Shown here: piece by piece, positions 24,001 through 45,257 of the stretch | Layout: each line of letters begins with the position of its first letter | How positions within the stretch are numbered: the stretch's first letter is position 1 | Assembly: GCA_032158295.1 (NCBI GenBank) | Contig: CM063257.1 | Location: 18,072,332-18,136,331, forward strand | DNA from: Pycnopodia helianthoides | Lineage: Eukaryota > Echinodermata > Asteroidea > Forcipulatida > Asteriidae | Direction of reading: 5' to 3' | DNA length: 64,000 nt | Position numbers and translations under genes: made by a program | The notes under the pieces: model-generated | Databases searched by the model: none | Told to the model about the DNA's origin: nothing | The model's input: only the letters and a program-made list of their open reading frames with translations

Positions 24001-27000
24001 TTCCTTTACCATGATGAAGCTATGACGTTGAAAACATATGACAAATCAACTAAAATTATAAAACATTGTTTGTGTTTGACGCAAATATTTGTTACATGGA
24101 AAGTTGTGCACAGAAGTTTGCTAAAGTGTACTGTCGTCTCAAAGAAACAAATTGTTAAAAGAGTGATTGAACATCATGTTCACAACATACATGTACCTTT
24201 GGAAATGAATGCCTCTATTACCTACATACTTCTAAATACCTAAAAGTCTCAGAAACTCAAATCATGGTATTCCATGTGTAAAAAAGCAAATACATGTACA
24301 TGTACTCGTGTGTTGCAATATTGCATGATGGGGGATGCGTACAATGTTACTACCTTATCTATGTACAGGCCTTGTTTGATGATGGGACTTCTGACCTTTA
24401 AATCTTTGGAGAATGTACAAAGTGACTTGGGTACAAAGTGACTTGGGTACGAAGTGACTTGGGTATGAAGTGACTTGGGTACGAAGTGACTTGGGTACGA
24501 AGGGACTTGGGTACGAAGTGACTTGGGTATGAAGGGACTTGGGTATGAAGAGACTTGGGTATGAAGTGACTTGGGTATGAAGTGACTTGGGTATGAAGGG
24601 ACTTGGGTATGAAGGGACTTGGGTATGAAGGGACTTGGGTATGAAGTGACTTGGGTATGAAGGGACTTGGGTATGAAGTGACTTGGGTATGAAGGGACTT
24701 GGGTATGAAGGGACTTGGGTATGAAGTGACTTGGGTATGAAGGGACTTGGGTATGAAGGGACTTGGGTATGAAGGGACTTGGGTATGAAGTGACTTGGGT
24801 ATGAAGGGACTTGGGTATGAAGTGACTTGGGTATGAAGGGACTTGGGTATGAAGTGACTTGGGTATGAAGTGACTTGGGTATGAAGTGACTTGGGTACGA
24901 AGTGACTTGGGTACGAAGTGACTTGGGTATGAAGGGACTTGGGTATGAAGTGACTTGGGTATGAAGCGACTTGGGTATGAAGTGACTTGGGTATGAAGTG
25001 ACTTGGGTACGAAGTGACTTGGGTATGAAGTGACTTGGGTACGAAGTGACTTGGGTACGAAGTGACTTGGGTATGAAGGGACTTGGGTATGAAGTGACTT
25101 GGGTATGAAGGGACTTGGGTATGAAGTGACTTGGGTATCAAGCGACTTGGGTATTTAAGCGACTTGGGTATGAAGGGACTTGGGTATGAAGTGACTTGGG
25201 TATGAAGGGACTTGGGTATGAAGTGACTTGGGTATGAAGTGACTTGGGTATGAAGGGACTTGGGTATGAAGTGACTTGGGTATGAAGTGACTTGGGTACG
25301 AAGGGACTTGGGTATGAAGTGACTTGGGTATGAAGGGACTTGGGTATGAAGGGACTTGGGTATGAAGGGACTTGGGTATGAAGGGACTTGGGTATGAAGT
25401 GACTTGGGTATGAAGTGACTTGGGTATGAAGGGACTTGGGTATGAAGTGACTTGGGTATGAAGGGACTTGGGTATGAAGTGACTTGGGTATGAAGTGACT
25501 TGGGTATGAAGGGACTTGGGTATGAAGTGACTTGGGTATGAAGGGACTTGGGTATGAAGTGACTTGGGTATGAAGGGACTTGGGTATGAAGGGACTTGGG
25601 TATGAAGGGACTTGGGTATGAAGTGACTTGGGTATGAAGGGACTTGGGTATGAAGGGACTTGGGTATGAAGGGACTTGGGTATGAAGTGACTTGGGTATG
25701 AAGTGACTTGGGTATGAAGTGACTTGGGTATGAAGTGACTTGGGTACAATGTGACCGACATTCCTGCCACACTGTACTGGACAAGTTCTACTCTGCACTG
25801 CCACTTCCACTTGAGTGGTATGGCATGAAATCAAAAATAGTGCTCCACCATCCGTCCATGCAAATTGTAGGTTCGTGGCACTGAGTGATATATGCGCTGG
25901 ACGTAATGTACATTTCTCTAAAACCATAGAATGGCATTTGACACATTGCTTCAACCTGCTTCAAATAATAGAGGCATATATGCGTCACGACGTATGAAGC
26001 CCAATTCCTCGCCTTTTTAGATGGCACAACCATGCACGTTTATTACTTGGTTGGGTTCCTCCATGGTGAAAGGAGGGGAGTGTTCATTACCCCAACCTAG
26101 ACCAAGTTACTGGGGCGCTGTACTCCTTCTTTGAAAATGTTGACATTTATCGGTCGTACTAGCGCCCCAGGAACTTATTTTACGCAACTACATCAATGCG
26201 ATCACGCTCTCAGCAGGATCCCGGGTGCCCTGCTTCAACCGTGAAACCACGCGGTTGAGGCAGGGCACCTGTCAAATTTTAGACGGGCACCCTGCCTCAA
26301 CTGTGACAACAACGCGGTTGAGGGAGATAGGGCATCCGTCTAATTTGATGGGTACCCTACCTCCCTCAACTTTGTTGTCGTCACATTTGAGGCAGGGCAC
26401 CTGTCTAAAATTTGACAGGTGCCCTGCCTCAACCACGTGGTTTCACGGTTGAGGCAGGGCACCCAGTAAAATGAAGATTGATGCAGTTACGTACAATAAG
26501 CAGGGCTTGAATTTGGGGGAACAATCCACAAGACCACAGGACTTGTATCTCAAAATGTTAACTGGACCGGAAATAGTTTTACAAGACCAGATTCAAACTA
26601 AGAAAAGACTTTCTTGAACAGTTTAACTTGCATTTAATTGAACAAGCACTAAGACATATAAGAAAAGATTTACCTCATTTGTCTTTAAGGGAATTAAGTA
26701 TATTTCAAATCAGTACTCAAAGTCAACATTTGAACATAATTTGTTTCTGTTCACAAGATATTATAGAGTGAGGTGCATGAATTGTTATTGAATTGAAAAC
26801 ACAAGACCGCCGGACTTGTCTGGTAATGAGTTTACTGGCCCAATACTAAAATCACTGGCCTCGGGCCTGCGGTCCAGTGTCAAATTCGAGCCCTGATAAG
26901 TTCCTGGGGCGCTAGTCCGACCGATAAATGTCAAAATTTTCGAAAAAGGAGTACAGCGCCCCAGTAACTGGGTCTAACCCTAGCCCTGGTAGGACGTCAG

Positions 27001-28115
27001 TCAGTGCCACTGCACTGACGTCCTGGGTATAAAGCTCCTCTACAATGCGAACATATTTTGAGCTCATGTTTCAAAATATTTTTACCTGATTTGAGAAGCT
27101 GAAACTCCATTCATACATTATTGGTGTCCTAACTACACTTTTGATGAGTTCACAATAACAAATACATCCATGGATGACATTATTTCCAAAAATAAGTCCG
27201 AGTTGTGTACTGGCGTTGTGACCATCGTGTACCAAGTGACGGTTAAAGCTCATGTGCGCATGCGCAGCATGCAAAGCAACCCGACCGACCTCCGCGTTAG
27301 ATTTGTGGGCGTGTCTGAGGACGCACATGCGCTGAAGGATTCACGTCTTGTCAGTTTAGGCTGTCGCCGAGAATGCGTAAGTTTTTCATTTTCTTTCACA
27401 ATAATGTCATCCAAGAATATAATTTGCAATTCTGAATAGAGCAGGCGTAAGGTTTAGGACACAAGGAATATGTGAGTCAAGTCTCAGCTTCCTCAAAAAG
27501 GTAAAAATATGAACAAATGTTGTTATAAATTTTTTCGCAATGGTACGGGACCTTTATATCCTGGACTCCGTCGCGTTGTATGCAACGGAGTCCAACCTGG
27601 GCTAGGTCTACCCCAACCCTGCTAACCCTACCCCTACCTAACCCTACACCTAACCCTACCCCTCACCCCCTCCTATCCACTCCAGTCACCCTCACCATCT
27701 CGTGGTTCACACATTACACACAAACTTGCGTGGTTGTGACTTGTCTTGTGGCTTCATACGATAATGAAGCCAAACAACCACTGCATTGTAATGTGCATGG
27801 TTGTGGCAGGGATTTGGGCTTCATATGTCTGTTCGTATATATATCTCAAATAATAACAATTTAGTCAACGGAATGTCCGGATACTGGGCGAAGATTAGCA
27901 TAGTCAATATACATGTACATGTACAAAACATGTACATCATGTACAATACATTACAACCGTACACAGTATACTGTATAGACCAAGTCGCTGCTGTACGACG
28001 ACATATTTTGCAAACAAATAATTCGCACCAACATGACCAACGTCCGAATGCTCACAAAATTCCTTCACTAGCTAAGCCAAATAAAAGGCATAATTCAACA
28101 AGGTTTACTCACCAT
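18053..28115 (-). CDS. VPS26: VPS26, retromer cargo-recognition subunit (complete, eight coding exons)
   Basis: Minus-strand coding exons: 28113-28115 (ATG only), 23163-23376, 22125-22281, 20675-20839, 20266-20372, 19598-19666, 18959-19101 and 18053-18136. Borders are GT-AG and phases fit throughout, giving 313 residues (human VPS26A 327, VPS26B 336). Landmarks in order are [143 protein letters not shown] and QQEITLWRK. VPS26 is an arrestin-fold subunit of the VPS35-VPS29-VPS26 retromer, which recycles endosomal cargo to the trans-Golgi or plasma membrane. Intron 1 is 4.7 kb and packed with repeats. The short tail after TLWRK diverges from human, as usual for the family; a further 3' exon is not excluded. 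Confidence 0.95.
19140..19395. repeat. AAGTC-rich 21-bp minisatellite in VPS26 intron 6
   Basis: Units such as ggaggtcaagtcccaaatct repeat about four times cleanly at 19258-19345, with degenerate copies around them. Similar caagtc-rich text occurs at 60355-60420 and in the arrays at 4620-5614 and 24410-25756. Confidence 0.7.
20420..20600 (-). mobile_element. tRNA-derived SINE, second family (reverse orientation)
   Basis: Contains gcgctctaccaactgagc, the reverse complement of a tRNA A-box region, followed by tatctttgttcggggtgcc. A fuller copy is at 22335-22560, and another lies at 4255-4400. In a VPS26 intron. Confidence 0.5.
20927..21143. mobile_element. 217-bp MITE in VPS26 intron 3
   Basis: Ends ccaaatttcatggctctgct and agcagagcaatgaaattggg are inverted. 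The inside carries smaller mirrored segments (ggcgcttacgg, cggcgcttgcc). No coding capacity. Confidence 0.55.
21252..21480 (+). mobile_element. tRNA-derived SINE copy in VPS26 intron
   Basis: cgtagccaagagggtctagc and ccttgagaaagacactt match the head of the 9963 family. The region after 21375 is a fragment of the 1500-1856 type element. Antisense to VPS26. Confidence 0.5.
22335..22560 (-). mobile_element. tRNA-derived SINE, second family
   Basis: On the minus strand gttcagttggtagagctcg and gtcgcaggttcaaatccg are A- and B-box-like segments correctly spaced for a tRNA. The rest lacks a tRNA acceptor stem, so it is a SINE head and not a tRNA gene. Confidence 0.6.
23415..23643. mobile_element. 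Compact piggyBac-like MITE in VPS26 intron 1
   Basis: Bounded by ttaatcctcttgctgtctga on the left and gacagtaggagggttaa on the right: inverted ends abutting TTAA. About 225 bp, no coding sequence. Shares gaatgatagataaact with the 12408-14932 elements. Confidence 0.6.
24407..25756. repeat. 16-bp minisatellite in VPS26 intron 1, about 83 copies
   Basis: Unit tgacttgggtatgaag, with alternation mainly of t/g at the first base (tgactt or ggactt) and of tat/tac in gggtatgaag. Three units make 48 bp, so the minus strand stays open in all frames and yields a 518-codon frame of YPSHF/IPKSL/HTQV-like repeats. That frame has no independent support, and the array lies in the sense-strand intron of VPS26. 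Confidence 0.95.
26098..26976. mobile_element. Long palindromic DNA element in VPS26 intron 1
   Basis: Outer arms: 26098-26178 (agttactggggcgctgtact ... agcgccccaggaactta) and 26897-26976 (taagttcctggggcgctagt ... ccagtaactgggtcta) are ~80-bp inverted repeats. The inner hairpin 26221-26465 has ~117-bp arms (gggtgccctgc-tcaaccgtg on both sides). The right arm is interrupted by a separate insertion at 26501-26895. Non-autonomous; no coding sequence. Confidence 0.8.
26501..26895. mobile_element. CAGGG-ended insertion with 5-bp target duplication
   Basis: Ends cagggcttgaattt and aaattcgagccctg are inverted. Direct repeats ataag flank it exactly (26496-26500 and 26896-26900). It splits the right arm of the 26098-26976 palindrome, so it arrived later. 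CAGGG ends recall hAT elements, but a 5-bp duplication is not typical of hAT, so the superfamily is open. Confidence 0.7.
27601..27668 (-). repeat. Degenerate telomere-like (CCCTAA) stretch
   Basis: Several ctaaccctac/ctaaccctacc motifs in a row resemble TTAGGG repeats on the minus strand, with many variants. A short hairpin (ggactccgt ... acggagtcc) precedes it. Within VPS26 intron 1. Confidence 0.4.
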
Positions 28116-28306
28116 TTTATCTGCTTTTCTGCTGACCAGTGAAACTCACTTCCTATGCTTTGATTTTTTCACGCAGAAAAGTGGGAGGATTTTTGCATCG
28201 TCGAGATGTTAAAAAATAATGACGCCCTCTAGAGCTCCACTGCAGCCATCGACCCCCACTTCGCAATGGCACCGCCCCTTTGGGAGATTTTATGTAAAAC
28301 GTTTTC
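28116..28306 (-). promoter_or_regulatory. VPS26 5' UTR and promoter region
   Basis: Immediately upstream of the VPS26 ATG. No TATA box recognised. Only about 190 bp separate the ATG from the end of the 9.8-kb inverted-repeat composite, so the promoter either lies in this short space or uses the terminal arm of the repeat. Confidence 0.45.
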
Positions 28307-28654
28307 ACCGAGCTGAAGCTAGCACAGTATTGGGCCCAAAAATAGCAAGCCGCATATTCGCGGAACAGCCAGCCGCGTATTCACGAAAATAAAACACATG
28401 CAGTACAGGGAGGTGACAAAATGGCTCATTTTCTGTCGGCGAAACCGTGATTTTATCCGAACGAATACTGAAACATTAGCCATAACTAACATATTTTCAT
28501 TAAATAATATTGAAAAGTTATAGCTATAAAGTATTGGAAAGTAATAAACAAAGAAAAAAGTCACTAAATAACAAAAAAGCGGCAAACACGGAGACAATGT
28601 GCGTGTATTATGTCATAATATTTTTACGCTGTTTAAATACTGAAACATATTTTG

Positions 28655-29260
28655 TACAAGAGTTTGTACCCTTCGTTATGAGTAAAAGTGGAAGTTTTCG
28701 TCCAGAATCTTGAAGACTGATCAATGGGTATATCAAATTTTTGAGCTGGCTAATTTGGTCCACTAATTAGTAGTCAATTAACCACAGTTATACAGACGCC
28801 TATTCCATCGAAAACACGCACAATTGCATTTGCGGTAAAGTCAACTACCTATTGTAAAACATTTGTACCCTTCATTATAAATAAAAGTGGAATTTTTAGT
28901 CCAGAATCTTGAAGACTGATACACTGGGCATACCAAATTTTTGAGCTGGCTAATTTGGTCCACTAATTAGTGGTTAATTAACCACAGTTATACAAACGCC
29001 ATTTTCCATAAAACACGCACAGTTGCATACGCGGTTGAGTCAACTACCTTGTAGTTGTAAAGAATTTGTACCCTTCATTATTAATCTTTTTGTGATTTTT
29101 AGCCCGGAATCCTGAAGACTATTATACTGGGCATACCAAATTTTTGAGCTAGTTAATTTGGTCCACTAATTAGTGGTTAATTTATCCAAATTATATATAG
29201 ACGCCATTTTCTCCTATAATACTCACAATTGCCTATGCGGCTGAGTAAACTAGTTATTTA
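28655..29260 (+). repeat. Left arm, ~200-bp units (three copies)
   Basis: Units start at about 28660, 28863 and 29063 with tttgtacccttc and contain caaatttttgagctggctaa, ggtccactaattagtggtta and a cgcacaattgc region. Similarity decays toward the core. Confidence 0.8.
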
Positions 29261-29960
29261 AATTACAATTACAATTTGCCGTGAATAAAAATGTTATTAC
29301 TCCCTTTTATTCCCCCCAATCAAAATTACGAAAAGGTTAGTGTTCAACTTAGAACAACGCATACAAATAAGATTAACTTTTAAATCTCATGAATTTTATT
29401 TAATTTCTGGACAGTTTAATAAGCATCAAAATAAATAGTTGTATATTTATTTCAAATTTTGTCTTAATGTAACAGTTAAAAGAAAACACATCCGGGTTCT
29501 TTATAAATTATTCACTTAATTCACCCACTATACCGGTTAGCGTCGGAGGGTCACTCTCACCTCTGACGTCGAAAGACTGACAACATAACTTTCCCCGTCT
29601 TTGATAGAGGAATGATCTTCCTATTTTCGTTTATTTCCCCCTGGATTTCACCTTAATAACATTTTGTATAAACTATTTCTTGTAAACACTAGACTATCAT
29701 AGCAGGTGTTGTTAATAAGCCCCAAAATGCCCATTTTAATGATTTTATTACTTGCTTCCACAAAATAATCCATTGTATAATCAACGAAAACAAGTCTTGC
29801 TTAATTTCTGGTGATTTTAAAAACAACCTTATCTACTGTAATCATCACAGCCAGCAACAGGATGTTTTGGATCAGAAATATAATCCTCGTCTTGCAAACT
29901 CATTAATAAACCTACCAGGATCATGCAATCATCTTCCACTCTCATTGACACATTTTCCCC
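29261..29960. other. AT-rich spacer between left arm and GC array
   Basis: No coding signal and no clear repeat. The right-hand counterpart between 36420 and 36480 is far shorter, so the two halves are not symmetrical here. Confidence 0.4.
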
Positions 29961-29964
29961 ACCT

Positions 29965-32900
29965 GGGGAAAACCTTTACCCGGGCCCCAGGGCCCGGAGA
30001 AAGTTTTTACCCGGCCCGAGGCACCGGGGAAAACCTTTACCCGGGCCCCAGGGCCCGGAGAAAGTTTTTACCCGGCCCGAGGCACCGGGGAAAACCTTTA
30101 CCCGGGCCCCAGGGCCCGGAGAAAGTTTTTACCCGGCCCGAGGCACCGGGGAAAACCTTTACCCGGGCCCCAGGGCCCGGAGAAAGTTTTTACCCGGCCC
30201 GAGGCACCGGGGAAAACCTTTACCCGGGCCCCAGGGCCCGGAGAAAGTTTTTACCCGGCCCGAGGCACCGGGGAAAACCTTTAGTACACCCCGGGCCCCA
30301 GGGCCCGGAGAAAGTTTTTACCCGGCCCGAGGCACCGGGGAAAACCTTTACCCGGGCCCCAGGGCCCGGAGAAAGTTTTTACCCGGCCCGAGGCACCGGG
30401 GAAAACCTTTACCCGGGCCCCAGGGCCCGGAGAAAGTTTTTACCCGGCCCGAGGCACCGGGGAAAACCTTTACCCGGGCCCCAGGGCCCGGAGAAAGTTT
30501 TTACCCGGCCCGAGGCACCGGGGAAAACCTTTACCCGGGCCCCAGGGCCCGGAGAAAGTTTTTACCCGGCCCGAGGCACCGGGGAAAACCTTTACCCGGG
30601 CCCCAGGGCCCGGAGAAAGTTTTTACCCGCCCGAGGCACCGGGGAAAACCTTTACCCGGGCCCCAGGGCCCGGAGAAAGTTTTTACCCGGCCCGAGGCAC
30701 CGGGAAAACCTTTACCCGGGCCCCAGGCCCGGAGAAAGTTTTTACCCGCCCGAGGCACCGGGAAACCTTTACCCGGCCCCAGGCCCGAGAAAGTTTTTAC
30801 CCGGCCCGAGGCACCGGGAAAACCTTTACCCGGGCCCCAGGCCCGAAAAGTTTTTACCCGGCCCGAGCACCGGGAAAACCTTTACCCGGGCCCCAGGCCC
30901 GAGAAAGTTTTTACCCGGCCCGAGGCACCGGGAAAACCTTTACCCGGGCCCCAGGCCCGAGAAAGTTTTTACCCGCCCGAGGCACCGGGAAAACCTTTAC
31001 CCGGCCCCAGGGCCCGGAGAAAGTTTTTACCCGGCCCGAGCACCGGGAAAACCTTTACCCGGCCCCAGGGCCCGGAAAAGTTTTTACCCGGCCCGAGGCA
31101 CCGGGAAAACCTTTACCCGGCCCCAGGCCCGGAGAAAGTTTTTACCCGCCCGAGGCACCGGGAAAACCTTTACCCGGGCCCCAGGCCCGAGAAAGTTTTT
31201 ACCCGGCCCGAGGCACCGGGAAAACCTTACCCGGCCCCAGGGCCCGAGAAAGTTTTTACCCGGCCCGAGCACCGGGAAAACCTTTACCCGGCCCCAGGGC
31301 CCGGAGAAAGTTTTTACCCGCCCGAGGCACCGGGAAAACCTTTACCCGGGCCCCAGGGCCCGGAGAAAGTTTTTACCCGGCCCGAGGCACCGGGGAAAAC
31401 CTTTACCCGGGCCCCAGGGCCCGAGAGAAAGTTTTTACCCGGCCCGAGGCACCGGGGAAAACCTTTACCCGGCCCCAGGGCCCGGAGAAAGTTTTTACCC
31501 GGCCCGAGGCACCGGGGAAAACCTTTACCCGGGCCCCAGGCCCGGAAAGTTTTTACCCGCCCGAGCACCGGGGAAAACCTTTACCCGGGCCCCAGGCCCG
31601 AGAAAGTTTTTACCCGCCCGAGGCACCGGGGAAAACCTTTACCCGGCCCCAGGGCCCGGAGAAAGTTTTTACCCGGCCCGAGGCACCGGGGAAAACCTTT
31701 ACCCGGGCCCCAGGCCCGAGAAAGTTTTTACCCGGCCCAGGCACCGGGAAAACCTTTACCCGGCCCCAGGCCCGGAGAAAGTTTTTACCCGGCCCGAGGC
31801 ACCGGGGAAAACCTTTACCCGGGCCCCAGGCCCGGAGAAAGTTTTTACCCGGCCCGAGGCACCGGGAAAACCTTTACCCGGCCCCAGGGCCCGGAAAGTT
31901 TTACCCGCCCGAGCACCGGGGAAAACCTTTACCCGGGCCCCAGGCCCGAGAAAGTTTTTACCCGGCCCGAGGCACCGGGAAAACCTTTACCCGGGCCCCA
32001 GGGCCCGGAGAAAGTTTTTACCCGGCCCGAGGCACCGGGAAAACCTTTACCCGGCCCCAGGCCCGGAAAGTTTTTACCCGGCCCGAGGCACCGGGGAAAA
32101 CCTTTACCCGGCCCCAGGCCCGGAAAAGTTTTTACCCGGCCCGAGGCACCGGGAAAACCTTTACCCGGCCCCAGGCCCGAGAAAGTTTTACCCGCCCGAC
32201 ACCGGGAAAACCTTACCCGGCCCAGCCCGGAGAAAGTTTTTACCCGGCCCGAGGCACCGGGAAAACCTTACCCGGCCCCAGGGCCCGAGAAAGTTTTACC
32301 CGCCCAGGCACCGGGAAAACCTTACCCGCCCAGGCCCGGAGAAATTTTTACCCGCCCGAGCACCCCGGGCCCGGAGAAAGTTTTTACCGCCGAGGCACGG
32401 GAAAACCTTTACCGGGCCCCAGGGCCCGGAGAAAGTTTTTACCCGCCCGAGGCACGGGGAAAACCTTTACCCGGGCCCCAGGGCCGGAGAAAGTTTTTAC
32501 CCGGCCCGAGGCACCGGGAAACCTTTACCCGGGCCCAGGGCCGGAGAAAGTTTTTACCCGGCCCGAGGCACGGGAAAACCTTTACCCGGGCCCCAGGGCC
32601 GGAGAAAGTTTTTACCCGGCCCGAGGCACCGGGGAAAACCTTTACCCGGGCCCAGGGCCGGAGAAGTTTTTACCCGGCCGAGACCGGGGAAAACCTTTAC
32701 CGGGCCCAGGCCGGAGAAAGTTTTTACCCGGCCCGAGGCACCGGGGAAAACTTTACCGGCCCCAGGGCCGGAGAAAGTTTTTACCCGGCCCGAGGCACCG
32801 GGGAAAACCTTTACCGGGCCCAGGGCCCGGAGAAAGTTTTTACCGGCCCGAGGCACCGGGGAAAACCTTTACCCGGGCCCCAGGGCCCGGAGAAAGTTTT

Positions 32901-34640
32901 TACCGGCCCGAGGCACCGGGAAAACCTTTACCCGGCCCCAGGGCCCGGAGAAAGTTTTTACCCGGCCGAGGCACCGGGGAAACCTTACGGCCCCAGGCCC
33001 GAGAAAGTTTTACCCGCCGAGGCACCGGAAACTTACCGGGCCCCAGGGCCGAGAAAGTTTTACCGGCCAGCACGGAAAACCTTACCGGCCCCAGGCGAGA
33101 AGTTTTTACGGCCGAGACGGAACTTTACCGGCCAGGCCGAAAGTTTACGCAGCACGGAACTTACCGGCCAGGGCCGGAGAAAGTTTTTACCCGGCCGAGG
33201 CACCGGAAACCTTACCGGCCCCAGGCGAGAAAGTTTACCGCCGAGCCGGAAAACTTTACCGCCAGGCCCGAAGTTTTACCGCCGGCACCGGAAACCTTAC
33301 CGGCCAGGCCGGAGAAAGTTTACCGCCCGGGCCGGAAAACCTACGCCAGGCGAGAAAGTTTTTACCGCCAGACGGGGAAACTTTACCGGGCCAGGCCCGA
33401 GAAAGTTTTTACCCGGCCCGAGGCACCGGGAAAACCTTTACCGGGCCCAGGGCCCGGAGAAAGTTTTTACCCGCCCGAGGCACCGGGGAAAACCTTTACC
33501 CGGGCCCCAGGGCCCGAGAAAGTTTTTACCCGGCCCGAGGCACCGGGGAAAACCTTTACCCGGGCCCAGGCCGGAGAAAGTTTTTACCCGGCCCAGGCAC
33601 CGGGGAAAACCTTTACCCGGGCCCCAGGGCCCGGAGAAAGTTTTTACCCGGCCCGAGGCACCGGGGAAAACCTTTACCCGGCCCAGGGCCCGGAGAGAAG
33701 TTTTTACCCGGCCCGAGGCACCGGGGAAAACCTTTACCCGGCCCCAGGCCGGAGAAAGTTTTTACCCGGCCCGAGGCACCGGGGAAAACCTTTACCCGGG
33801 CCCCAGGGCCCGGAGAAAGTTTTTACCCGGCCCGAGGCACCGGGGAAAACCTTTACCCGGGCCCCAGGGCCCGGAGAAAGTTTTTACCCGGCCCGAGGCA
33901 CCGGGGAAAACCTTTACCCGGGCCCCAGGGCCCGGAGAAAGTTTTTACCCGGCCCGAGGCACCGGGGAAAACCTTTACCCGGGCCCCAGGGCCCGGAGAA
34001 AGTTTTTACCCGGCCCGAGGCACCGGGGAAAACCTTTACCCGGGCCCCAGGGCCCGGAGAAAGTTTTTACCCGGCCCGAGGCACCGGGAAAACCTTTACC
34101 CGGGCCCCAGGGCCCGGAGAAAGTTTTTACCCGGCCCGAGGCACCGGGGAAAACCTTTACCCGGGCCCCAGGGCCCGGAGAAAAGTTTTTACCCGGCCCG
34201 AGGCACCGGGGAAAACCTTTACCCGGGCCCCAGGGCCCGGAGAAAGTTTTTACCCGGCCCGAGGCACCGGGGAAAACCTTTACCCGGGCCCCAGGGCCCG
34301 GAGAAAGTTTTTACCCGGCCCGAGGCACCGGGGAAAACCTTTACCCGGGCCCCAGGGCCCGGAGAAAGTTTTTACCCGGCCCGAGGCACCGGGGAAAACC
34401 TTTACCCGGGCCCCAGGGCCCGGAGAAAGTTTTTACCCGGCCCGAGGCACCGGGGAAAACCTTTACCCGGGCCCCAGGGCCCGGAGAAAGTTTTTACCCG
34501 GCCCGAGGCACCGGGGAAAACCTTTACCCGGGCCCCAGGGCCCGGAGAAAGTTTTTACCCGGCCCGAGGCACCGGGGAAAACCTTTACCCGGGCCCCAGG
34601 GCCCGGAGAAAGTTTTTACCCGGCCCGAGGCACCGGGGAG
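29965..34640 (+). repeat. GC-rich 61-bp minisatellite, about 80 copies
   Basis: Unit of 61 bp (period measured 29969 to 30030): aaaacctttacccgggcccc, agggcccggagaaagttttt, acccggcccgaggcaccgggg. Copies at both edges are almost identical, whereas those between ~30600 and ~33700 carry mostly single-base losses in G or C runs, worst at 33000-33400. Units are rich in self-complementary ccgggccc/gggcccgg. The plus strand has no stop codon in the unit, so two overlapping frames of about 1,600 codons arise; I do not consider them genes. Confidence 0.95.
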
Positions 34641-34866
34641 CTGGGGGATTCGAACTACTAACCTTTGCTCTTCTAGTCGGTGACTCTACCGTTTGCCCTA
34701 AATTACTGCCCACCACCACCCTATTTTTTGTTCAATATATAGTAACAATTTGTTTTCTAATAAGAAAAAAGAAAGTTTGTTGCTTCTAGGTGATTCGAAC
34801 CAAGGACCCCGCTATTAGAGTTACCATGAACTATCTAACTGCGCTAACTTGTCCACTCGTAAAAGA
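34641..34866 (-). other. Two tRNA-like segments (degenerate) at the edge of the GC array
   Basis: On the minus strand, 34641-34700 reads acggtagagtcaccgact then agtagttcgaatcccccagc, and 34785-34855 reads gttagcgcagttagatagtt then ccttggttcgaatcacctag. Both have A-box-like and B-box-like parts at tRNA spacing, but stems do not pair well, so they are tRNA-derived relics and not working tRNA genes. Confidence 0.45.
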
Positions 34867-34889
34867 CGCTTCTCTTTTCTTAATATACA

Positions 34890-35175
34890 TTGGTAAAAGC
34901 GTAGACTTGTCGACAGGTCATTTAATGTTTGTCTCGGAGATAACATTGCAGGGTGTTTCGTGTGGATGCGTGCGCATTGTTAGTCTTGTTTACGTTGTCA
35001 GTACGCACCTTTATTGGTAAAAGCGTAGACTTGTGGACAAGTCGTTTAATGTTTGTCTCGGAGATAACATTGCGTGGTGTTTCGTGTGGATGCGTGCGCA
35101 TTGTTAGTCTTGTTTACGTTGTCAGTACGCACCTTTATTGGCAAAAGCGTAGACTTGTGGACAAGTCGGTTAAAA
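34890..35175 (+). repeat. 124-bp tandem repeat, two and a third copies
   Basis: tggtaaaagcgtagacttgt recurs at 34891, 35015 and 35139 (period 124). Units include tgtctcggagataacattgc and gtgtggatgcgtgcgcattg. It joins directly to the GC array at 35175. Confidence 0.85.
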
Positions 35176-36420
35176 CTTTCCCGGCTACTCGGGACGGGTA
35201 AAAACTTTCCCCGGCTACTCGGGCCGGGTAAGAAATTTCCCGGGTGCCGTGGGCCGGGTAAAACTTTCCCCTGCTACTCGGGCCCGATAAGAAATTTCCC
35301 GGGGGTGCCGTGGGCCAGGTAAAAACTCTCCCCTGCTACTCGGGCCCGATAAGAAATTTCCCGGGTGCCGTGGGCCAGGTAAAAACTTTCCCCGGCTACT
35401 CGTGCCAGGTAAGAAATTTCCCGGGTGCCGTGGGCCGGCTAAAAACTTTCCCCTGCTACTCGGGCCCGATAAGAAATTTCCCGGGGGTGCCGTGGGCCAG
35501 GTAAAAACTCTCCCCTGCTACTCGGGCCCGATAAGAAATTTCCCGGGTGCCGTGGGCCAGGTAAAAACTTTCCCCGGCTACTCGTGCCAGGTAAGAAATT
35601 TCCCGGGTGCCGTGGGCCGGCTAAAAACTTTCCCCTGCTACTCGGGCCCGATAAGAAATTTCCCGGGTGCCGTGGGCCAGGTAAAAACTTTCCCCTACTA
35701 CTCGGGCCCGATAAGAAATTTCCCGGGGGTGCCGTGGGCCAGGTAAAAACTCTCCCCTGCTACTCGGGCCCGATAAGAAATTTCCCGGGTGCCGTTGGCC
35801 AGGTAAAAACTTTCCCCGGCTACTCGTGCCAGGTAAGAAATTTCCCGGGTGCCGTGGGCCGGCTAAAAACTTTCCCCTGCTACTCGGGCCCGATAAGAAA
35901 TTTCCCGGGGGTGCCGTGGGCCAGGTAAAAACTTTCCCCGGCTACTCGTGCCAGGTAAGAAATTTCCCGGGTGCCGTGGGCCGGCTAAAAACTTTCCCCT
36001 GCTACTCGGGCCCGATAAGAAATTTCCCGGGTGCCGTGGGCTAGTTAAAACTTTCCCCGGCTTCTCGGGCCGGTAAAACATTTCCCCTGTGCCGTGGGCC
36101 GGGTAAAAACTTTCCCCGGCTACTCGTGCCAGGTAAGAAATTTCCCGGGTGCCGTGGGCCGGCTAAAAACTTTCCCCTGCTACTCGGGCCCGATAAGAAA
36201 TTTCCCGGGTGCCGTGGGCCAGGTAAAAACTTTCCCCTACTACTCGGGCCCGATATGAAATTTCCCGGGTGCCGTGGGCTAGTTAAAACTTTCCCCGGCT
36301 TCTCGGGCCGGTAAAACATTTCCCCTGTGCCGTGGGCCGGGTAAAAACTTTCCCCGGCTCCTCGGGTCGGGTAAACAGTTTCCCCGGTGCCATGCATGGG
36401 CCGGCTAAAAACTTTCCGGC
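35175..36420 (-). repeat. Second GC-rich array, ~61-bp units with 182-bp higher-order period
   Basis: Units of the form aggtaaaaactttccccggc, tactcgtgccaggtaagaaa, tttcccgggtgccgtgggcc. Variants recur in groups of three about 182 bp apart (for example 35402 and 35584). Read on the minus strand the unit resembles that of 29965-34640 (gcacccggga, gggaaagtttttacc), so the two arrays are inverted relatives. Confidence 0.85.
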
Positions 36421-36479
36421 CGCACATAATGGCCCAGATATTTCCCAGATGTTTCCCATTATGGGTTCAATATGGGCTT

Positions 36480-37735
36480 GCTACCTGGGGTCGTTAACTA
36501 TTGACCACTAATTAGTGGACAAAATATTAGCGAGCTGAAAAATTTGAAATGCCCAAAGTGTATCAGTCTACAAGATTCTGGACTAAAAATTCCACCTTTA
36601 TTTTAAATGAAGGGTACAAATTCTTTACAATAGGTAGTTGACTTTACCGCGTATGCAATTGTACGTGTTTTAGATGGAAAATTGCGTCTGTATAACTGTG
36701 ATAAGTGACCACTAATTAGTGGCCCAAATTAGCCAGCTCAAAAATTTGATATGCCCAGTGTATGTATCAGGCTTATAAATTCTGGACTAAATATTCCACT
36801 TTTACTCATAGTGAAGGGTACAAATTTCTTACAAGAGGTAGTTGACTTTACCGCATATGCAATTGTACGTGTTTTAGATGGAAATGGTGTCTGTTTAACT
36901 GTGGTTAATTTACCACTAATTAGTAGACCGAATTAGCCAGCTCAAAAATTTGATATGCCCAGTGTATCAGTCTTTAGGATTCTGGACTAAAAATTCAACT
37001 TTTATTCATAATGAAGGGTACAAATTCATTACAAAAGGTAGTTGACTCAACCGCATATGCAATTCTGCGTGTTTTATATGGAAAAAGGCGTACGTATAAC
37101 TGTGGTTAATTAACCAGTAATTAGTGGACCAAATTAGCCAGCTCAAAAATTGGATATAGTGTATCAGTTTTCAAGATTCTGGACTAAAACTGCCACTTTT
37201 ATTTATAACGAAGGCTCAAATTCTTTACAAGAGGTAGTTGACTTTACCGCATATGCAATTGTACGTGTTTTAGATGGAAATGGCGTCTGTTTAACTGTGG
37301 TTAATTTACCACTAATTAGTGGACCGAGTTAGCCAGCTCAAAAATTTGATATGTCTTCAAGATTCTAGACTAAATATTCCACTTTTAGTCATCTGTGGTT
37401 AATTAACCACTAATTAGTGGACCAAATTAGCCAGCTCAAAAATTTGGTATGCCCAGTGTATCAGTCTTTAGGATTCTGGACTAAAAATTCTACTTTTATT
37501 CATATTGAAGGGTACAAATACATTACAAGAGGTAGTTGACTCAACCGCTATGCAATTGTGCGTGTTTTATATGGAAAAGGCGTACGTAAACTGTGGTTAA
37601 TTAACCACTAATTAGTGGACCAAATTAGCCAGCTCAAAAATTTGATATGCCCAGTGTATTAGTTTTTCAAGATTCTGGACTAAAACTGCCATTTTTACTC
37701 ATAACGAAGGGTACAAACTCTTTTCAAAATATTAA
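36480..37735 (-). repeat. Right arm, ~200-bp units (about six copies)
   Basis: gaagggtacaaa occurs near 36608, 36822, 37013, 37508 and 37704, with a variant near 37208 and a truncated unit near 37385. Units are inverted relative to those at 28655-29260 and share ccactaattagtggacc and gccagctcaaaaatttg. Confidence 0.85.
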
Positions 37736-38080
37736 AATAGTATTTAAACAGCGTAAAAATGACATAACACACGGACATTGTCTCCGTGTTTGCGGCTTAT
37801 TTTTTGTTATTTAGTTACTTTTATTTTCTTTGTGTTTTGCTTTTCAATGAGATTTAGCTATAACATTTCAATACTATCTAATGAAAATCTGCAAGTTATG
37901 GCTAATATTTCAGTATTCGTTCGGATAAAATAACGAACTCGCAGACAGAAATGGGCCATTTTGTCACCTCCCTGTACTGCATGTGTTCTATTTCCGCAAA
38001 TACGCGGCTGGCTGTTCCTCGAATACGCGGCTGGCTATCTTGGGCCCAATACTGTGCTAGCTTCATTCAGCTCGGTATGT

Positions 38081-39420
38081 GTTCACCAGACTGAAGCTAG
38101 CCGCGTATTGGGCCAGATTTCCATCCGCGTATTCAAGGACCGGCCAGCCGCGTATTCAGGAAAATTAGAATCCATGCAGTTAAAGGCGGTAACACTTTTG
38201 GCTCCCCCTTCTTTCTTATTTTAACGAATTAAAAAAATTGTAATAACTATTCGTATAATTTGTCCAATATTCTTTGAGAACATATCACTGACAATACTTC
38301 AAGGTAAAATTTGATTACTTTGTTGTCTAATTGAACAGTAATTGACCGACACAATTAAGACCTCATCATCTTCAACATTTTACACAACTGATTAAAAAAC
38401 TTGCACTCACCCCAAAGTAAATGTACCCTTCATGTTGCTTAAAATATGAAATTTTATTTCATAATCTGATAGACCATACCACTGGGCAGACTTAATTTTG
38501 GAGGTGGTTAATTCGGCTCACTAATTAGTACCTAATTAGCCGCTTGAATACGCGCCGTTTTCTATCATGCGTTACTTGTACCTACTACTAACTATTATAA
38601 GAGCGCTCGCCGTAAAGTAAATGTACCCTTCATGTTGCATAATAGATGAAATATTATTCCATAATCTGATAAACCAAACCACTGGGCACACTTAATTTTG
38701 GAGGTGGTTAATTCTGATTATTAATTAGTACCTAATTAGCCGATTGAATACGCGCCATTTTCTATCATGCGTTAGCGGTATAGCACTTGTACATACTACT
38801 TACTATTAGGACAACCCTCGCCGTAAAGTAAATGTACCCTTCATGTTGCATAGAAGATGAAATTTTATTCCATAATCTGATAGTCCATACCACTGGGCAC
38901 ACTTAATTTTGGAGGTGGTTAATTCAGCTCACTAATTAGTACCTAATTAACCTCGAGAACACAGGCCATTTTTGTCATACGTTTGCGGTATCTAGCACTT
39001 GTACACAATACTTACTATTAGGACAGCACTCGCCGTAAAGTAAATGTACCCTTCATGTTGCATAAAAGATGAAATTTTATTCCATAATCTGATAGTTCAT
39101 ACTACTGGGCACACTTAATTTTGGAGGTGATTAATTCGGCTGACTAATTAATACCTAATTAGCCGATGGAATACGCGCCATTTTCTATCATGCGTTAGCG
39201 GTATAGCACTTGTACATACTACTTACTATTATGACAACACTCGCCGTAAAGTAAATGTACCCTTCATGTTGCATAAAAGATGAAATTTTATTCCATAATC
39301 TGATAGTCCATACCATTGGGCACACTTAATTAACCTCGAGAACACAGGCCATTTCTTATCATGCGTTAGCGGTATAGCACTTGTGCATATACTACTTACT
39401 AATTAGCCTCAAGAACAAAG
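38081..39420 (+). mobile_element. Diverged partial second copy of the 9.8-kb element's left end
   Basis: Starts gttcaccagactgaagctag, matching the left terminus context at 28302, then ccagccgcgtattcaggaaa as at 28370. It continues into five ~210-bp units (aaatgtacccttcatgttgc, ggaggtggttaattc, gaatacgcgccattttctat) that correspond to the 200-bp units of the first element in the same order but are clearly diverged. No core array or right end follows. Confidence 0.7.
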
Positions 39421-40280
39421 GCTGGAAACCTTGTTTTAGGTCCTTGTATTTTACATTTGGTTTTGTTTTAACTGATCCTATTTAAACCCATGAATATACA
39501 ATTAATCTTGCGGATAAACATTTTTTGATAAAAAATAAAAACATATACATGTACATGTATACAATGTAATAAATATACATATATTTATCGTCGTCTAGTA
39601 TAGGGCCTAAGGTCGTTAATTTAAACTTCAAATCCGTAATCATCAAAAAGTTCGTTAAGTGAAAAATGCAAATAAGTTCGAAAAAACAGAAACTGAATGT
39701 TTCGTTTTGTCAAAGACTACTCTTGATCAATAAACTCAATTTACCAGGAGTTCCAAAATATGCCAAACCAATTTTATGAAATCCATACAAATTGCACTAA
39801 CGACCTTTTAGTCCTGAGCCGACAATATATAACACAGGCCTTACGCATTTATAAAACAGTGACACATTTTTTTCTTCTTCTCAGTGTTCATTGTTAAAAT
39901 CAAATCATGAGGTACTCCGTTGTTGAACAAACGCATTGGCCACTCTCACTCATCACCCACGAGTCCATCAGCTGCTGCTGCGTGCTCGTAACGGGAGTCT
40001 TTATCAGTCGTTTTTATCAAATTTTGTCTTGATATCGACCATGCCGATTCAATTAAATCAATCTAATGTGTTCATGACGAAGGACTTATAATGTCCACTT
40101 TCAATTGAATTACCTTCGTGGACAACTACTGAACGCAAACGGTAAACTGCAGGTGTGTTATTGACACAGAAATTTGACAAATTGATTACAATATTTGGAT
40201 CGATGTTTGCTGTAATTTTTCCTCCGTTTCCCTGATTACCATTGAATCTTAATAACTGAACTACTAATAGTGAGGGACAG
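39421..40280. other. No gene recognised
   Basis: AT-rich. It holds a tacatgtacatgta microsatellite-like run at 39545-39560 and a short gctgctgctgcg stretch near 39971. No repeat family or exon identified. Confidence 0.4.
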
Positions 40281-40664
40281 TTAATTATACGAGAAACTTT
40301 CGTAAATTATTTTCGTGCTCTTCTTTTGACCACAAAGGCTGCAATCGACATCCCTAACAACTTCATCGCTGAAGCAATGTTGCAAACACTCATACAGACA
40401 CTCTTTTGGGGCTGCAACAGGTAATACACCTGATGTCGAATTTTCAACGACGGAGGTTTCATTGCAGGTTAGACACATAACACTTTTACTTATTTCTATT
40501 TCAGCTGTTAAACATGATTCATTAAGAAATGGCACAATAAGCTGTGAATAAAATTCAGCAGCATCATTTTGTTGGTTGCAACTAATTTTCATTTGAACTG
40601 CAGATTCCTTAATCAACGGGCGCACTGTGTGAAAAGAAATTGATGTGGATATGTCTAATGCCAA
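40281..40664 (-). pseudogene. USP-like deubiquitinase fragment
   Basis: A 127-codon open frame carries CNQQNDAAEFYSQLIVPFL, like the QQDAHEFL box of ubiquitin-specific proteases, followed by the zinc-ribbon pattern CLTC ... CSLC with LYECLQHCFSDE between, as in the USP fingers region. The catalytic Cys box upstream and His box downstream are not seen, so this is a fragment or one exon of a larger gene. It lies near a THAP/transposase locus, whose relation to it is unknown. It may be mobile-element cargo or a decayed host paralogue. Confidence 0.5.
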
Positions 40665-40904
40665 GGATTCAAATGTAAAAAATAACAGATTAAGAAACGA
40701 GAATACAATTTGGGCTTACAAATAAACTTTTCCATTCGGGGTTTACAAAGTTCATTTAGAACAGTTACATTAGTATTTATGGCTGCCCTGATATATTATG
40801 AGCAACAACTCGAAAGAAATAGAAGCGTTTATGCTTTAATTACAGATTGTATCTTGACCATCGCCACAGAAAGCAACAGATGAAACTCTTTAAGCCAGAC
40901 ACAC

Positions 40905-41440
40905 CTACTGGTTCTTAAAAAGAATATTCTTCGTGAGTTTGCGTCTAACATTCTCCCCTTTCACTGCCTCAATGTACCTCTTTGCTGCAAAGAAACGCCT
41001 GATCTTAAGAAACTCCTTAACTACTTTCCTCAACAAAGACAACCAGTGGTTTTCCATTCCTTCGTCACTATCAAACATGTGATCTAACAACTCTGGGAAA
41101 ACATCCTGTCGGTCAATGAACCTCTCCATGATGGCAACTTCAAGCTTTAGCCCCCAGTTTTCCTTTCGCATCTTCAAGTTAGATAAATTGACGGAACACC
41201 TGAGCATTGTCTCACAAGTACTTACAACTATGCGTAGACTTTCTGATGGACATATGAGACCACCTCGGGATTTAATGTTCAGTAGCAGAGTGAACAAAGT
41301 ATCATCTTGTGCATGAGAAATGAGTGCCACTTTACATTTGTCGCAGACTATACCACTTACCTGTGAAAGGAAATCCGGTTTCCTCCTCCGTACATAGCCC
41401 CTGAAGAAGAACAACCTACCGCAACACAACCCTTTACCAT
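40905..41440 (-). pseudogene. P-element/THAP9-type transposase remnant
   Basis: Two parts. (1) 41361-41440: ATG then MVKGCVAVGCSSSGAMYGGG with ISFH at the end and a donor cacag|gtaagt. C5-x4-C10 and the SFH end match the first exon of a THAP zinc finger. (2) In another frame, reaching down to 40905: VCDKCKVALISH, then LNIKSRGGLICPSESLRIVV and a basic C-terminus, which match the C-terminal domain of P-element/THAP9-like transposases. The RNase H-like catalytic middle is absent, so the element has lost its core by internal deletion or is a domesticated relic. Confidence 0.55.
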
Positions 41441-41700
41441 TTTTTAAGCGTAAAACTTGTGTCGGACTACAGTGACATCCCTTGTTTTACATAACGAAAC
41501 CTTTAAATATGGCAAAAAACGGAGCAATATTTTTCCACGACCCTGAAAATCATTTATTTGCGTTGCGTGCAGATTGTGCGCCGCCTCCCCGTTTAAATTC
41601 AAAAGCCCCACTTGCAAACGCGCGCGTTCGCTACATTTACGCGCAGTCGTCCTATCCAGTCACTATAATGTAGATCAATGTCTCTGGGTGCACCACACTA

Positions 41701-43047
41701 TTAACTCCATAGAGCTATATATATTGACTAGAGCGCTAACACCCCGTTATACACGCACTAAGGTTTTGAAGCCGTGTGGGCGCATCCATGTTTATGTACA
41801 AACCAATACAAAAGCTTGAAATTTTGTACTGCAATTGTACGGCTATTTACATGATAAAGCGTTTGTTCTTTTCTATGCGTCATCGAACCAAATATGCAGC
41901 AAATGTGAACGCACAATCTGCTAATGAGGTAGCCTTGATATCAAGGCTGTGTAGACAAGTCTAGCTAAAACCATAGAGCAAGGATACTAAAACCTCAGCC
42001 GCCCGAATGCCATACAACCCCAGTCCCCCGACTGACTCTAAAAAAAAATAGGACACCGCAATCTCACCATGCACACACACAGCGCCTGTACACAGCCCCA
42101 CACACACACCGCTATTGTCCACACACCGCTATCGCCCACAATCCTAGCCCGTGAGCCGTCAGGCTCACAGCCTTGACGATCTTGTACACTTCAGGGTCTT
42201 ATGTGTTTCATTGTTTTTCTTCGCAAATCCGTGGAAAATGGGGGGGGGGGGGTGAGTGGATATGCAAAGAGCGCACTTATTACCATAACCGCAAGACCCG
42301 GAAGTGTACAAGATCGTCAAGGCTGTGAGCCTAACGGCTCACGCGCTAGGATTGTGGGCGATAGCGGTGTGTGGACAATTGCGGTGTGTGCGGGGGACTG
42401 TGCATGGAAACGAGCGTTTGTGCGCTTCCTTGGGTGAGAGCGTGGTGTGCTGTTTAAAGACAGTCGGGGGGACCTGAACAGGAGTTGCATTGCATTCGGG
42501 CATCGCATTCGTGCGGCTGTGGTTATGCACATTTTTAGCTTTATAGTAAGCAAACACAGCCTTGCAATCAAGGCTGCTAATGAGCGTACAAACTGCGAGC
42601 GTCATGTGCGTCATGTTTAACATGTGCGTTTGCGCGTATACTTTTTTTTTTTGAGTTCGTCATTCTTGCCGGCATATTGTGTATCCTTGAAGCAGATTTC
42701 GTTTTTTTCCCCTTGACATCTTGAAGCATTGAATCCTCCCAAACAAGGCTTTAGTTCGACTCAGCATTTTTCCTAAGACGTAAGTAACAACATCAGAGAA
42801 TCACCTACTACATGTTTTTTTAAGACATCACTAAAATCACCTGTTTACAAGAGCAATGATCGTTAGATTAAATATTGCGCGTACGTAAGCGCGCACGCCG
42901 AATGCAAAATTTTCGCGGCCATGTGTGCTCTCTTAAAATTAAAATCGTTCCGTAGTCACGCAACACATCAAACATGTCTGCGCCCAGGGTGGCTTCTAAA
43001 CTCAGAGCAAGTTAGCGCTCTAGTCAATATATATAGCTCTATGATTA
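41701..43047. mobile_element. 1.35-kb long foldback element
   Basis: The outer ends catagagctatatatattga (left, 41708) and tcaatatatatagctctatg (right, to 43043) are inverted, each next to ttaa. Inner arms 42068-42192 and 42300-42424 are nearly perfect (acaatcctagcccgtgagcc against ggctcacgcgctaggattgt; gaagtgtacaagatcgtcaa) around a ~108-bp loop. Intermediate mirrored parts include the agccttgatatcaaggctg region at 41931 and its partner at 42560. No coding sequence. Confidence 0.75.
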
Positions 43048-45257
43048 ACTCACACAGCAACCAATCATTGCTAAATGCTAAAATAATATTCAAAAATACT
43101 CAAAAAATATTTCAAAGTCTCTCAGCCTCTTGAAAACCAATCATTAACTTGTGGCAGTCAGCCGTTTGGAATTTTTGCTAATTACCCCAGAAAAAACCCC
43201 CCCGAAGGTGTGCTTTTTCCCAAACCGACTTGCTGCCAGTTTTCATGAGGCAGTCTTCCACAGAAACACAGAACCCCAGGTTGTGATAGATTCTTATAAT
43301 TACACAATCTATTAATTACATGACCCAAAAACTTTACAATTCAAAAGTAACTGTGGGTTTACAAATTATGATAATCAGCTAGAGCATGAATTGTTGCCTA
43401 TTTAGTGTGGTGCACCCCTCTGAACTATGGGGCTTCATCTTTCGTCACCACTGCAGTATGGGCTACTGCAGATATTATATCACAGATACTTATACATGTA
43501 ATTTGTTTTAATATTTTTTTAAGAAGACAACAATAATAACAAGAAACAAATACTGCTAACAAAAACACGACATATTCAGCAATTATTAATCTTTTGGTCC
43601 GCTCTGGCCACGCCCTTCTATGCTCATTGTTTGATATATTTTTTGCTTGAACCCGAGCAAGTTCAAAATGGGAAAATACTTTTTATACCGAACCTACTTT
43701 TTAGATGTTGGGGCTTCGAAGAGAGGGAGAGGACATAAAATCATAGTTAGACTTATATATCTCAGAATTATGAGTTAGCATAAATCATTACTATGAAATA
43801 CCGGTATATCTCATATTATGATCTACAACAGTGATTGTTACTTGTGCCAATTAACTCATATTTATATGCAAGATAATAAGTCGTAACATACTGTGATACT
43901 ATGTCATAATTGTGAGATATCGGTCATAATGATTATTACGTTCAATTAAATTTTCTTTCTCTCTCAATGTCCATTTGGCGCATCCGGTAGAAACAACAGA
44001 CAAACAAAGCAAAACAAATCGAAAACACAGTTTTCGCTCAATGCACTAAGTCATTATTTTGTTAAAATGAAACAATATTTGCAGGCCTACAGTTTAGCTC
44101 TAGTAAATAATATATAATGTCATGTCCAGGCAACAACTCAACTGCGACTTTTGCAGGACTGCCACTTCAGTGTGACCATCTTTGACGATTTGTCTCGTAG
44201 TATCTCAAATGGTAGTTGACTGAAGAAATAGGCCTGTCTACAAAATTATTTAAATCAACTTTCGATACTATCACAATGACGAAAAGATTATGCATTTTCA
44301 CGTTGATGAGTTTTATTGTTTTAAGAGTCTTATAATTTGTAGGTTAATGTATACAAAATCGATTAAAAAGAAAAGAATGTTTTGGATTGTTTTAGAATTA
44401 TTTTTTTTACTGTAGTGTCATAATACCAATGAAGATAGGGCCTACATTTGGCTAGTTTAAATCCATTTACTATTGTTTTGAATGTTTGTGACTGAAAACT
44501 TGTTACAAGTTGTTTGTGAAGCAATTTAATTGAAATCACGCAACTATTTACCGCCATCGCACCCGTCAGTTTTTTCTTTTTACAATAATTCTTACCGATC
44601 CATGGCTTTATATGGATGATAACTTGTATACTTTTTAAAATTTAAAGTAGTCAACAAATGCAGAAAAGCTTAATAAGTTATATATCACGGCTTTCCTCTT
44701 TTTTATGTCTTTGCAGAAGTTGCATTTTCCATCCCCAACCTGGCAAACGGAACAAAAATCTAATATTAAACATCAAAATATATACGGGCACAAAATAATA
44801 CGCGTGGAAGCACGTTCTCCAATGGTTTTCATCAAAGTTTGTATCACAACTTAGACGTGATTATGACCAATTAATGTCCATGGCCAAATTAATTCAAAAT
44901 TATAAAACATAGGGTGTCATTATGCTCCACACTCTTCCCGATCTCATGCAGACTACATATATTGAGAACGGATGCCCAATAATTATTTACAATAAATCCC
45001 GTCCGACGTACGGTTAATTCTAGAACCAATTTGAAATTGGAAAACACCTTTTTAATTAAAAACCAAAAGGTGCATCTTACAAATGTATTGAGGCGAACAG
45101 AATGAACCACATCTCCATATTCACAAATTGCCAACAGTAACTGTTGTTGAGTAAATTATATTGAAGCAGAATGAATGTACAATACAACATGATTTGCAAC
45201 CAGTTTGTGGCTTGTATTTTGAAGAACACATAATAAACAAACCCAATTTTGTTTAAA
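43048..45257. other. AT-rich intergenic DNA
   Basis: No exon recognised. 43740-43930 contains repeated tatctca/tcataat words with mirrored placement and may be a degraded MITE. Otherwise nothing assignable. Confidence 0.35.

Follow-up and report, generated by a model that had tools for sequence, protein, structure and literature searches.

What kind of element is the 9.8-kb block of arms and nested tandem arrays at positions 28307-38076 of a 64,000-nucleotide stretch of Pycnopodia helianthoides DNA (assembly GCA_032158295.1, contig CM063257.1, positions 18,072,332 to 18,136,331 of the forward strand; 'the window' below means this whole stretch), and how does it move? The initial annotation had seen a composite laid out entirely in mirror image, and a candidate for an undescribed class of element. 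Our own answer, which we hold with considerable confidence, is that the block, here called E1, is very probably a non-autonomous foldback-type DNA transposon that moves jointly with a second, related element, S, and is served in trans by the enzyme of S, the copy in the window having been cut by a deletion. Transposition of E1 is shown, because copies are flanked by target duplications, and it is these duplications, together with an 8-bp link that joins E1 to S at three loci, on which the argument turns.

Architecture and dispersal of E1

From left to right, E1 and its left flank are made up as follows.

28299-28306, no strand: left flanking 8-mer ACGTTTTC, the expected target duplication of E1 and S together, whose right partner disappeared when S lost its far end
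28307-28660, plus strand: left terminal arm (L arm), beginning ACCGAGCTGAAGC
28663-29252, plus strand: three left-arm tandem units of ~203 bp
29253-29959, no strand: left spacer (spL) of 0.7 kb, unmatched on the right side
29960-34639, plus strand: 61-bp GC-rich minisatellite (msL), its middle part suspect as sequence
34640-35173, no strand: core, consisting of a 249-bp stretch that occurs once and 2.3 copies of a 124-bp tandem unit, direct and not inverted
35197-36417, minus strand: 60-bp GC-rich minisatellite (msR), an inverted relative of msL
36418-36499, no strand: short right spacer (spR)
36500-37717, minus strand: right-arm inverted units of ~203 bp, about six including truncated pieces
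37739-38076, minus strand: right terminal arm (R arm), ending CAGCTCGGT

Much of the mirror symmetry is real. The two arms (28307-28641 against 38076-37739) are 85.2% identical over 345 columns, with an alignment score of 437, where 200 single-base shuffles reached at most 32; both sides carry tandem units of about the ~200 bp first estimated; and the two GC-rich minisatellites do face each other, samples of 122 and 244 bases scoring 79 when inverted, 27 on the same strand and 23 in the best of 200 shuffles. The symmetry does not, however, take in the whole block, since the 0.7-kb left spacer has no right-hand counterpart within the window, and the core (34640-35196), which had been called both tandem and inverted, is tandem only: its best inverted self-matches are 16 bp long (E 0.13), which is no notable inversion. 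The block was rightly said to encode no protein, every frame of at least 110 codons within it passing through the minisatellites. A tRNA search found none, and Rfam, run on 27000-45000, gave 70 matches up to E 1, of which none reached the gathering score and all but two lay in the GC-rich arrays. By eye, two stretches of the core at 34640-34860 resemble worn minus-strand tRNA pieces, to which ARAGORN and Rfam give no support.

The inequality between the two sides was correctly read for the ~203-bp units (three against about six), but the ~80 units counted in the left minisatellite are unsafe, because the missing bases there read as consensus error. When 19 blocks of 240 bases from msL were compared with the consensus, under a scoring that somewhat favours gaps over mismatches, the blocks between ~30680 and 33700 departed from it almost solely by missing bases (97 in the worst), only one substitution was seen across all 19, and collapsing single-base runs removed most of the loss. 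From this pattern, the middle of msL looks like consensus error in a long-read array and not like ageing. A tree of 14 units split ten from E1 and four from S at 100/100, and it did not separate left from right E1 units, with 6 of 11 inner branches poorly supported.

Dispersed copies sharing the same ends had been predicted, and the host assembly (479 Mb in 742 contigs) contains them. In a search with the L arm, for which 40 of 219 candidates were scored, there were 42 matches among the scored candidates; 23 full-length L arms, the window's included, lie on 11 contigs at 96-100% identity, every one matching from its first base. We read 20 stretches representing 17 loci, with extra pieces for some (L labels below refer to these, C labels to contigs). 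Complete copies have the order L arm, units, left spacer, 61-bp array, core, 124-bp units, 60-bp array, right spacer, inverted units and R arm, and this order is common to the 17 loci, save for gaps and for the internal rearrangement seen in several copies (for example L012, L014, L015/16, L022, L023 and L028). Ten copies run from L arm to R arm (L009, L010, L012, L013, L015/16, L017/18, L019/20, L022, L027 and L028), and five loci run from the L arm to S2, the far end of the second element (L011, L021, L023, L024 and L025). L014 (C7:8646665-8653408) has two L-type arms (97% and 98%) and flanks that do not match, a form that came perhaps from exchange between copies. Some copies are clustered, for example at C2:3.13-3.28 Mb. 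Miniature inverted-repeat transposable elements are short, under ~0.6 kb, whereas the copies here span 4.3 to 24.5 kb.

Counted as BLAST pieces, unit number per copy varies from 2 to 12 on the right and from 2 to 4 on the left, while the two arm types are conserved, at 93-100% (left) and 90-100% (right) of the window's own. Because both arm types are conserved between copies, the asymmetry of the arms was inherited and not made at this locus; the earlier proposal that the arrays expanded independently after the inversion formed thus holds for the unit numbers, which do vary between copies, and not for the arms.

E1 and S as one mobile unit

Directly beyond E1 lies what remains of S in the window.

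38077-38084, no strand: 8-bp link ATGTGTTC between E1 and S, identical at two further loci
38085-38413, plus strand: S1 arm, the first terminal arm of S, beginning ACCAGACTGAAGC
38414-39406, plus strand: ~211-bp tandem units of S
39407-40062, no strand: interior of S (SintC), followed by an internal deletion relative to L021
40062-40673, minus strand: piece of the S gene from its ubiquitin-protease (USP) part, with S cut off at 40673

S is plainly a relative of E1: the terminal ~105 bp of their arms are 75-79% alike, and its ~211-bp units match those of E1 over part of their length, mostly at 67-77%. A complete S lies at C4:8474003-8491313 (17,311 bp), with the ends ACCAGACTGAAGC and GCTTCAGTCTGGT, a perfect 8-bp duplication CGTTTGTG on both sides and ~20 units facing ~27.

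The junction of R arm, ATGTGTTC and S1 arm is identical at three loci, C7 (L011), C3 (L025) and the window itself, and the left flanks of these loci differ. The complete joint unit at C7 (C7:1132457-1156943) is 24,487 bp long. Three further loci, C10a, C10b and C14, are without the junction, each by a different break, which runs in turn from the 61-bp array to the S units, from the R arm to the S interior and from the 60-bp array to the S units. Joint units were counted among the 17 loci read plus the window.

Where, then, do the target duplications lie? We compared the 8-bp flanks at the strict border of the 16 loci with both ends read and found matching flanks at 9, agreement in these nine being best at 8 bases. 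All five L-to-S2 loci are duplicated, with 8/8 bases at C7 (GAAATATT), C3 (TAAAACGG), C14 (GCGCGCTA) and C10b (CGATCGTC) and 7/8 at C10a (CCAAATCA/CCAAACCA); at C7 the left flank was known before the far end was retrieved, and the far end bears the identical 8 bp. Four of the ten L-to-R copies are duplicated (8/8 twice, 7/8 twice). Among 240 mismatched flank pairings, used as a control, one agreed at 8/8 (L022 on the left paired with L027 on the right), none at 7/8 and two at 6/8. As in a composite transposon, the outer ends of two elements are those that carry the duplication, and E1, the 8 bp and S are one mobile unit; because matching 8-bp duplications stand at the outer ends, it was these that were used, the inner ends being passed over or deleted.

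In the window, the joint unit runs from 28307 to 40673, a point within the S gene at which it breaks off and a truncated P-type element takes over; a search with the S1 arm found no second S-type arm within the window. Of the boundaries first drawn, 38076 does mark the true end of the R arm, but the mobile unit extends past it here, as far as 40673. We had considered ACGTTTTC and ATGTGTTC, which agree at 6/8, as a target duplication of E1 itself, and rejected them: C7 and C3 pair ATGTGTTC with other left flanks and have their match at the far end of S. We judge the likeness to be chance, because the left flanks at those two junction loci differ from ATGTGTTC.

Such units most likely formed in a few steps. 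E1 would first have come to lie beside S, a foldback relative whose ends resemble its own, with 8 bp between the two, and we infer from the shared ATGTGTTC that this happened once. The transposase then took the left end of E1 and the far end of S, skipping the two inner ends, which in some units were later lost by internal deletion, fusing E1 to S; in the window, a deletion into the neighbouring P-type element most likely removed the S half. Separately, at C3 (L025/L034, C3:17557949-17571948) exactly 8 bp separate the joint unit from an older L-type arm (83%) at its end, one more case of insertion at an end of the same family.

The S protein and competing explanations

Which enzyme might do this? 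The complete S at C4 has a single intact frame of 1571 codons that ends in USP (deubiquitinase) and Ulp1-type protease domains (Pfam); frames at C7 and C10a carry the same two domains, and at C14 this DNA recurs with 99% identity. When 636 residues were used as a protein query, one relative emerged among 4945 candidates, P0121 (991 residues), 57% alike over the protease part and with ~640 further residues ahead of it. Taken back to the genome, P0121 gave 49 matches, with 46 of 59 candidates scored, and the best was the C4 frame, at 59% over residues 10-989; the front part of the S protein is thus kept in P0121, and it is kept also in several partial genomic copies. This front half is probably a transposase, to judge from its sequence, and no library confirms it. 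It would be the most likely source of the activity proposed above, and since the terminal ~105 bp of the two elements are alike, we infer that it may serve E1 in trans. The tandem units would give extra binding sites, as an excerpted account of Galileo proposes for that element (PMC3573991).

Several points weigh against this account. Four of the ten L-to-R copies (L010, L013, L017/18 and L027) have no duplication at the strict border, the R ends of L013 and L017/18 being worn so that their borders are guesses, and at L012 and L022 the repeats need a shifted border (CTTGAGGG behind the damaged R end of L012; ATGTGTTC with one extra base at L022). At L027/L033 (C7:11262309-11272808) the R arm and ATGTGTTC are followed by foreign DNA, with the left flank AAATGTCA unmatched, which the model does not explain. 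The assembly contains doubtful arrays, so that array lengths may be wrong, the repeated junctions not. As for the enzyme, its service to E1 is proposed from the likeness of the ends; the front part has no Pfam match save a weak hit to a PHD finger, which at E 0.042 stays below cut-off, and the structure model of P0121, with a mean pLDDT of 35, is too poor to be of use. That the front part is perhaps a DDE-type, even Mutator/NOF-like, transposase is suggested by inspection of motifs: YLDATGS (499), MIDGSS (578) and HCCASHF (624), which presumably recall those of Mutator enzymes. Duplications of 8 bp with long inverted ends, as found here, are not diagnostic of Mutator-like elements, for which we take the range to be ~8-11 bp. 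The front part of P0121 had no Pfam match, and the best match in a sequence search of the PDB was USP18 (E 0.008).

It is against this background that the USP-Ulp1 gene could be seen as captured cargo of S, with the enzyme for both families encoded elsewhere, a reading that we consider unlikely but worth keeping in mind. No transposase family is recognised in the S frame, and P0121 was the only relative of the protease part among the candidates searched, both of which suit a captured gene. On the other hand, the frame is single and intact, its front part is conserved over the length given above and in partial genomic copies, and by eye the three motifs look DDE-like.

A second alternative, which strikes us as very unlikely, is that E1 and S landed side by side through the enzyme's preference for ends of its own family and never moved together. 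Insertions near older ends can be found, such as the C3 unit 8 bp from an old L-type arm, L022 at a site with 16 bases matching the arm interior (a reading by eye) and L028, which adjoins old units. Separate landings, however, do not agree with the same ATGTGTTC between R and S1 arms at three loci, nor with matching duplications that stand at the outer ends at five loci and not around E1.

What of the neighbour that interrupts S?

40671-41681, minus strand: truncated P-superfamily element, outside E1 and S, with a THAP9_C frame at 40908-41408 and its own terminus at 41681

Its THAP9_C match (41408-40908, E 1.3e-11) is 68% like a THAP9-type transposase, and P0001, a relative of the frame, had 437 matches when 7996 candidates were scored, most of those that bear a name being animal THAP9 transposases. 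Duplications of 8 bp fit P elements. Galileo, moreover, is a foldback-like member of the P superfamily (PMC3573991, in excerpt), and our first reading, that E1 is a Galileo-like member of that superfamily with the adjacent fragment as its gene, was built on these likenesses. It was overturned, and we now regard it as scarcely probable: at two further loci, C11 and C15, the same frame recurs as part of a separate element of 2.6 kb that has different ends, with the terminus CATTGATCTACATTATAG and the duplications CCCGAGAC and GATCCCTA, and because it has its own ends there, the P-type neighbour is a bystander. Of 120 P-type proteins, none matched the complete C7 unit or L021 convincingly (the best hit, at E 0.007, fell in a repeat array), no P/THAP9-type transposase lies inside the fetched copies with E1 or S ends, and a profile comparison of the S front part with 40 THAP9-type proteins gave a probability of 0.2%, with limited power since the S side held two sequences. 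The P-type family has moved recently, because the C11 and C15 copies are 99.4% alike with perfect 8-bp duplications. The two families do meet elsewhere: at L026 the R arm is truncated on its outer side and runs into an apparent P-type terminus piece (by eye), and L043/L032 (C11:19157814-19159013) shows, again by eye, a cut R arm joined to such a piece, a second meeting besides the window.

Finally, a satellite or segmental duplication without an insertion site, which the large tandem arrays and clustered copies might bring to mind, can be given next to no credence, since copies lie on 11 contigs, begin at the same first base and carry 8-bp duplications; neither of the refutations that the initial annotation had foreseen, a single copy or satellite lacking a defined insertion site, holds, and for the duplicated copies the satellite reading is already refuted.

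Returning to joint movement driven by S, we would give about even chances to a bolder formulation, namely a foldback lineage that is autonomous by virtue of a single protein combining an unrecognised type of transposase with a deubiquitinase and an Ulp1-type (SUMO-like) protease, and whose enzyme passes over inner ends, so that neighbours become welded together in units of ~24 kb, which spread and are then simplified by internal deletion. If true, the welding of neighbouring foldbacks would be a route to large mirror-image, multi-array elements. One may also speculate that a USP and an Ulp1-type protease on a transposon protein would let the element protect its enzyme where the host uses these modifiers to control it.

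Other structures in the window include a further inverted repeat at 41708-43043, whose 33-bp ends (41708-41740 and 43011-43043) are exact inverted copies and enclose a self-complementary middle (42001-42501); an inverted pair of ~320 bp, 90% alike and ~2 kb apart (47687-48010 and 49880-50188); and tandem arrays at 24420-25746 (16-bp x 83), 51935-53734 (90-bp x 20, 99%) and 61980-63815 (74-bp x 25, 96%).

E1 and S among known foldback elements

How does all this compare with what is already described? Long terminal inverted repeats, tandem units within them that vary in number by end and by copy, and dispersal with target duplications place E1 and S among the foldback transposons, a structural class assigned by layout and duplications and not by a catalogue sequence match; the two families may already be catalogued. 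E1 is not an undescribed class, as had been suggested, because tandem units inside long inverted ends mark foldback elements, those of Tetris, Galileo F and Tm1 among them. The published accounts are drawn on here in excerpt, and the comparisons apply to those excerpts. A limited literature search returned no foldback element in which USP and Ulp1 are fused, and no natural pair of foldbacks that are linked by 8 bp and move as a single unit.

Tetris of Drosophila virilis, with ~220-bp units and duplications of 8-9 bp, shares with E1 an outer arm, tandem units in long inverted ends, a variable middle and no conserved frame, and differs from it in that neither paired minisatellites nor a joint unit is described in the portion consulted (PMC4079207). 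FB and FB4 of Drosophila have the same foldback layout and are likewise non-autonomous (PMC8277862), a likeness of layout and not of sequence, with duplications of 9-10 bp against 8 for E1 and S. The enzyme is called unknown for FB4 (PMC8277862), and in the Tetris excerpt the autonomous partner was not found (PMC4079207), whereas E1 has a candidate partner. Because one genome contains the non-autonomous E1 family, its relative S with an intact frame, and natural joint units with exact duplications, the acceptance of ends and the skipping of inner ends become directly testable.

Tm1 of root-knot nematodes resembles E1 and S in its composite inverted ends, its unequal unit numbers at the two ends and its groups with and without a transposase gene, and it is unlike them in its ~14-bp units, mostly 9-bp duplications and Phantom/Mutator-type transposase, no protease domains being mentioned in the part of the account used (PMC3169594). 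Galileo F has ~210-bp tandem units in long inverted ends (PMC3573991), and Galileo shares deletion derivatives and chimeric copies with E1 and S; what sets it apart is a P-superfamily transposase and duplications of 7 bp (or 7-8 bp), as well as non-matching flanks around its chimeric copies where those of the E1 and S units match (PMC4168063, PMC3573991). For the joint unit itself, the natural comparison is Ising TE of D. melanogaster, in which DNA between foldback transposons moved as a composite unit (PMC6431247): there the segments between are cytologically visible and hundreds of kilobases long, whereas E1 and S stand only 8 bp apart, with their inner ends kept in some units and deleted in others.

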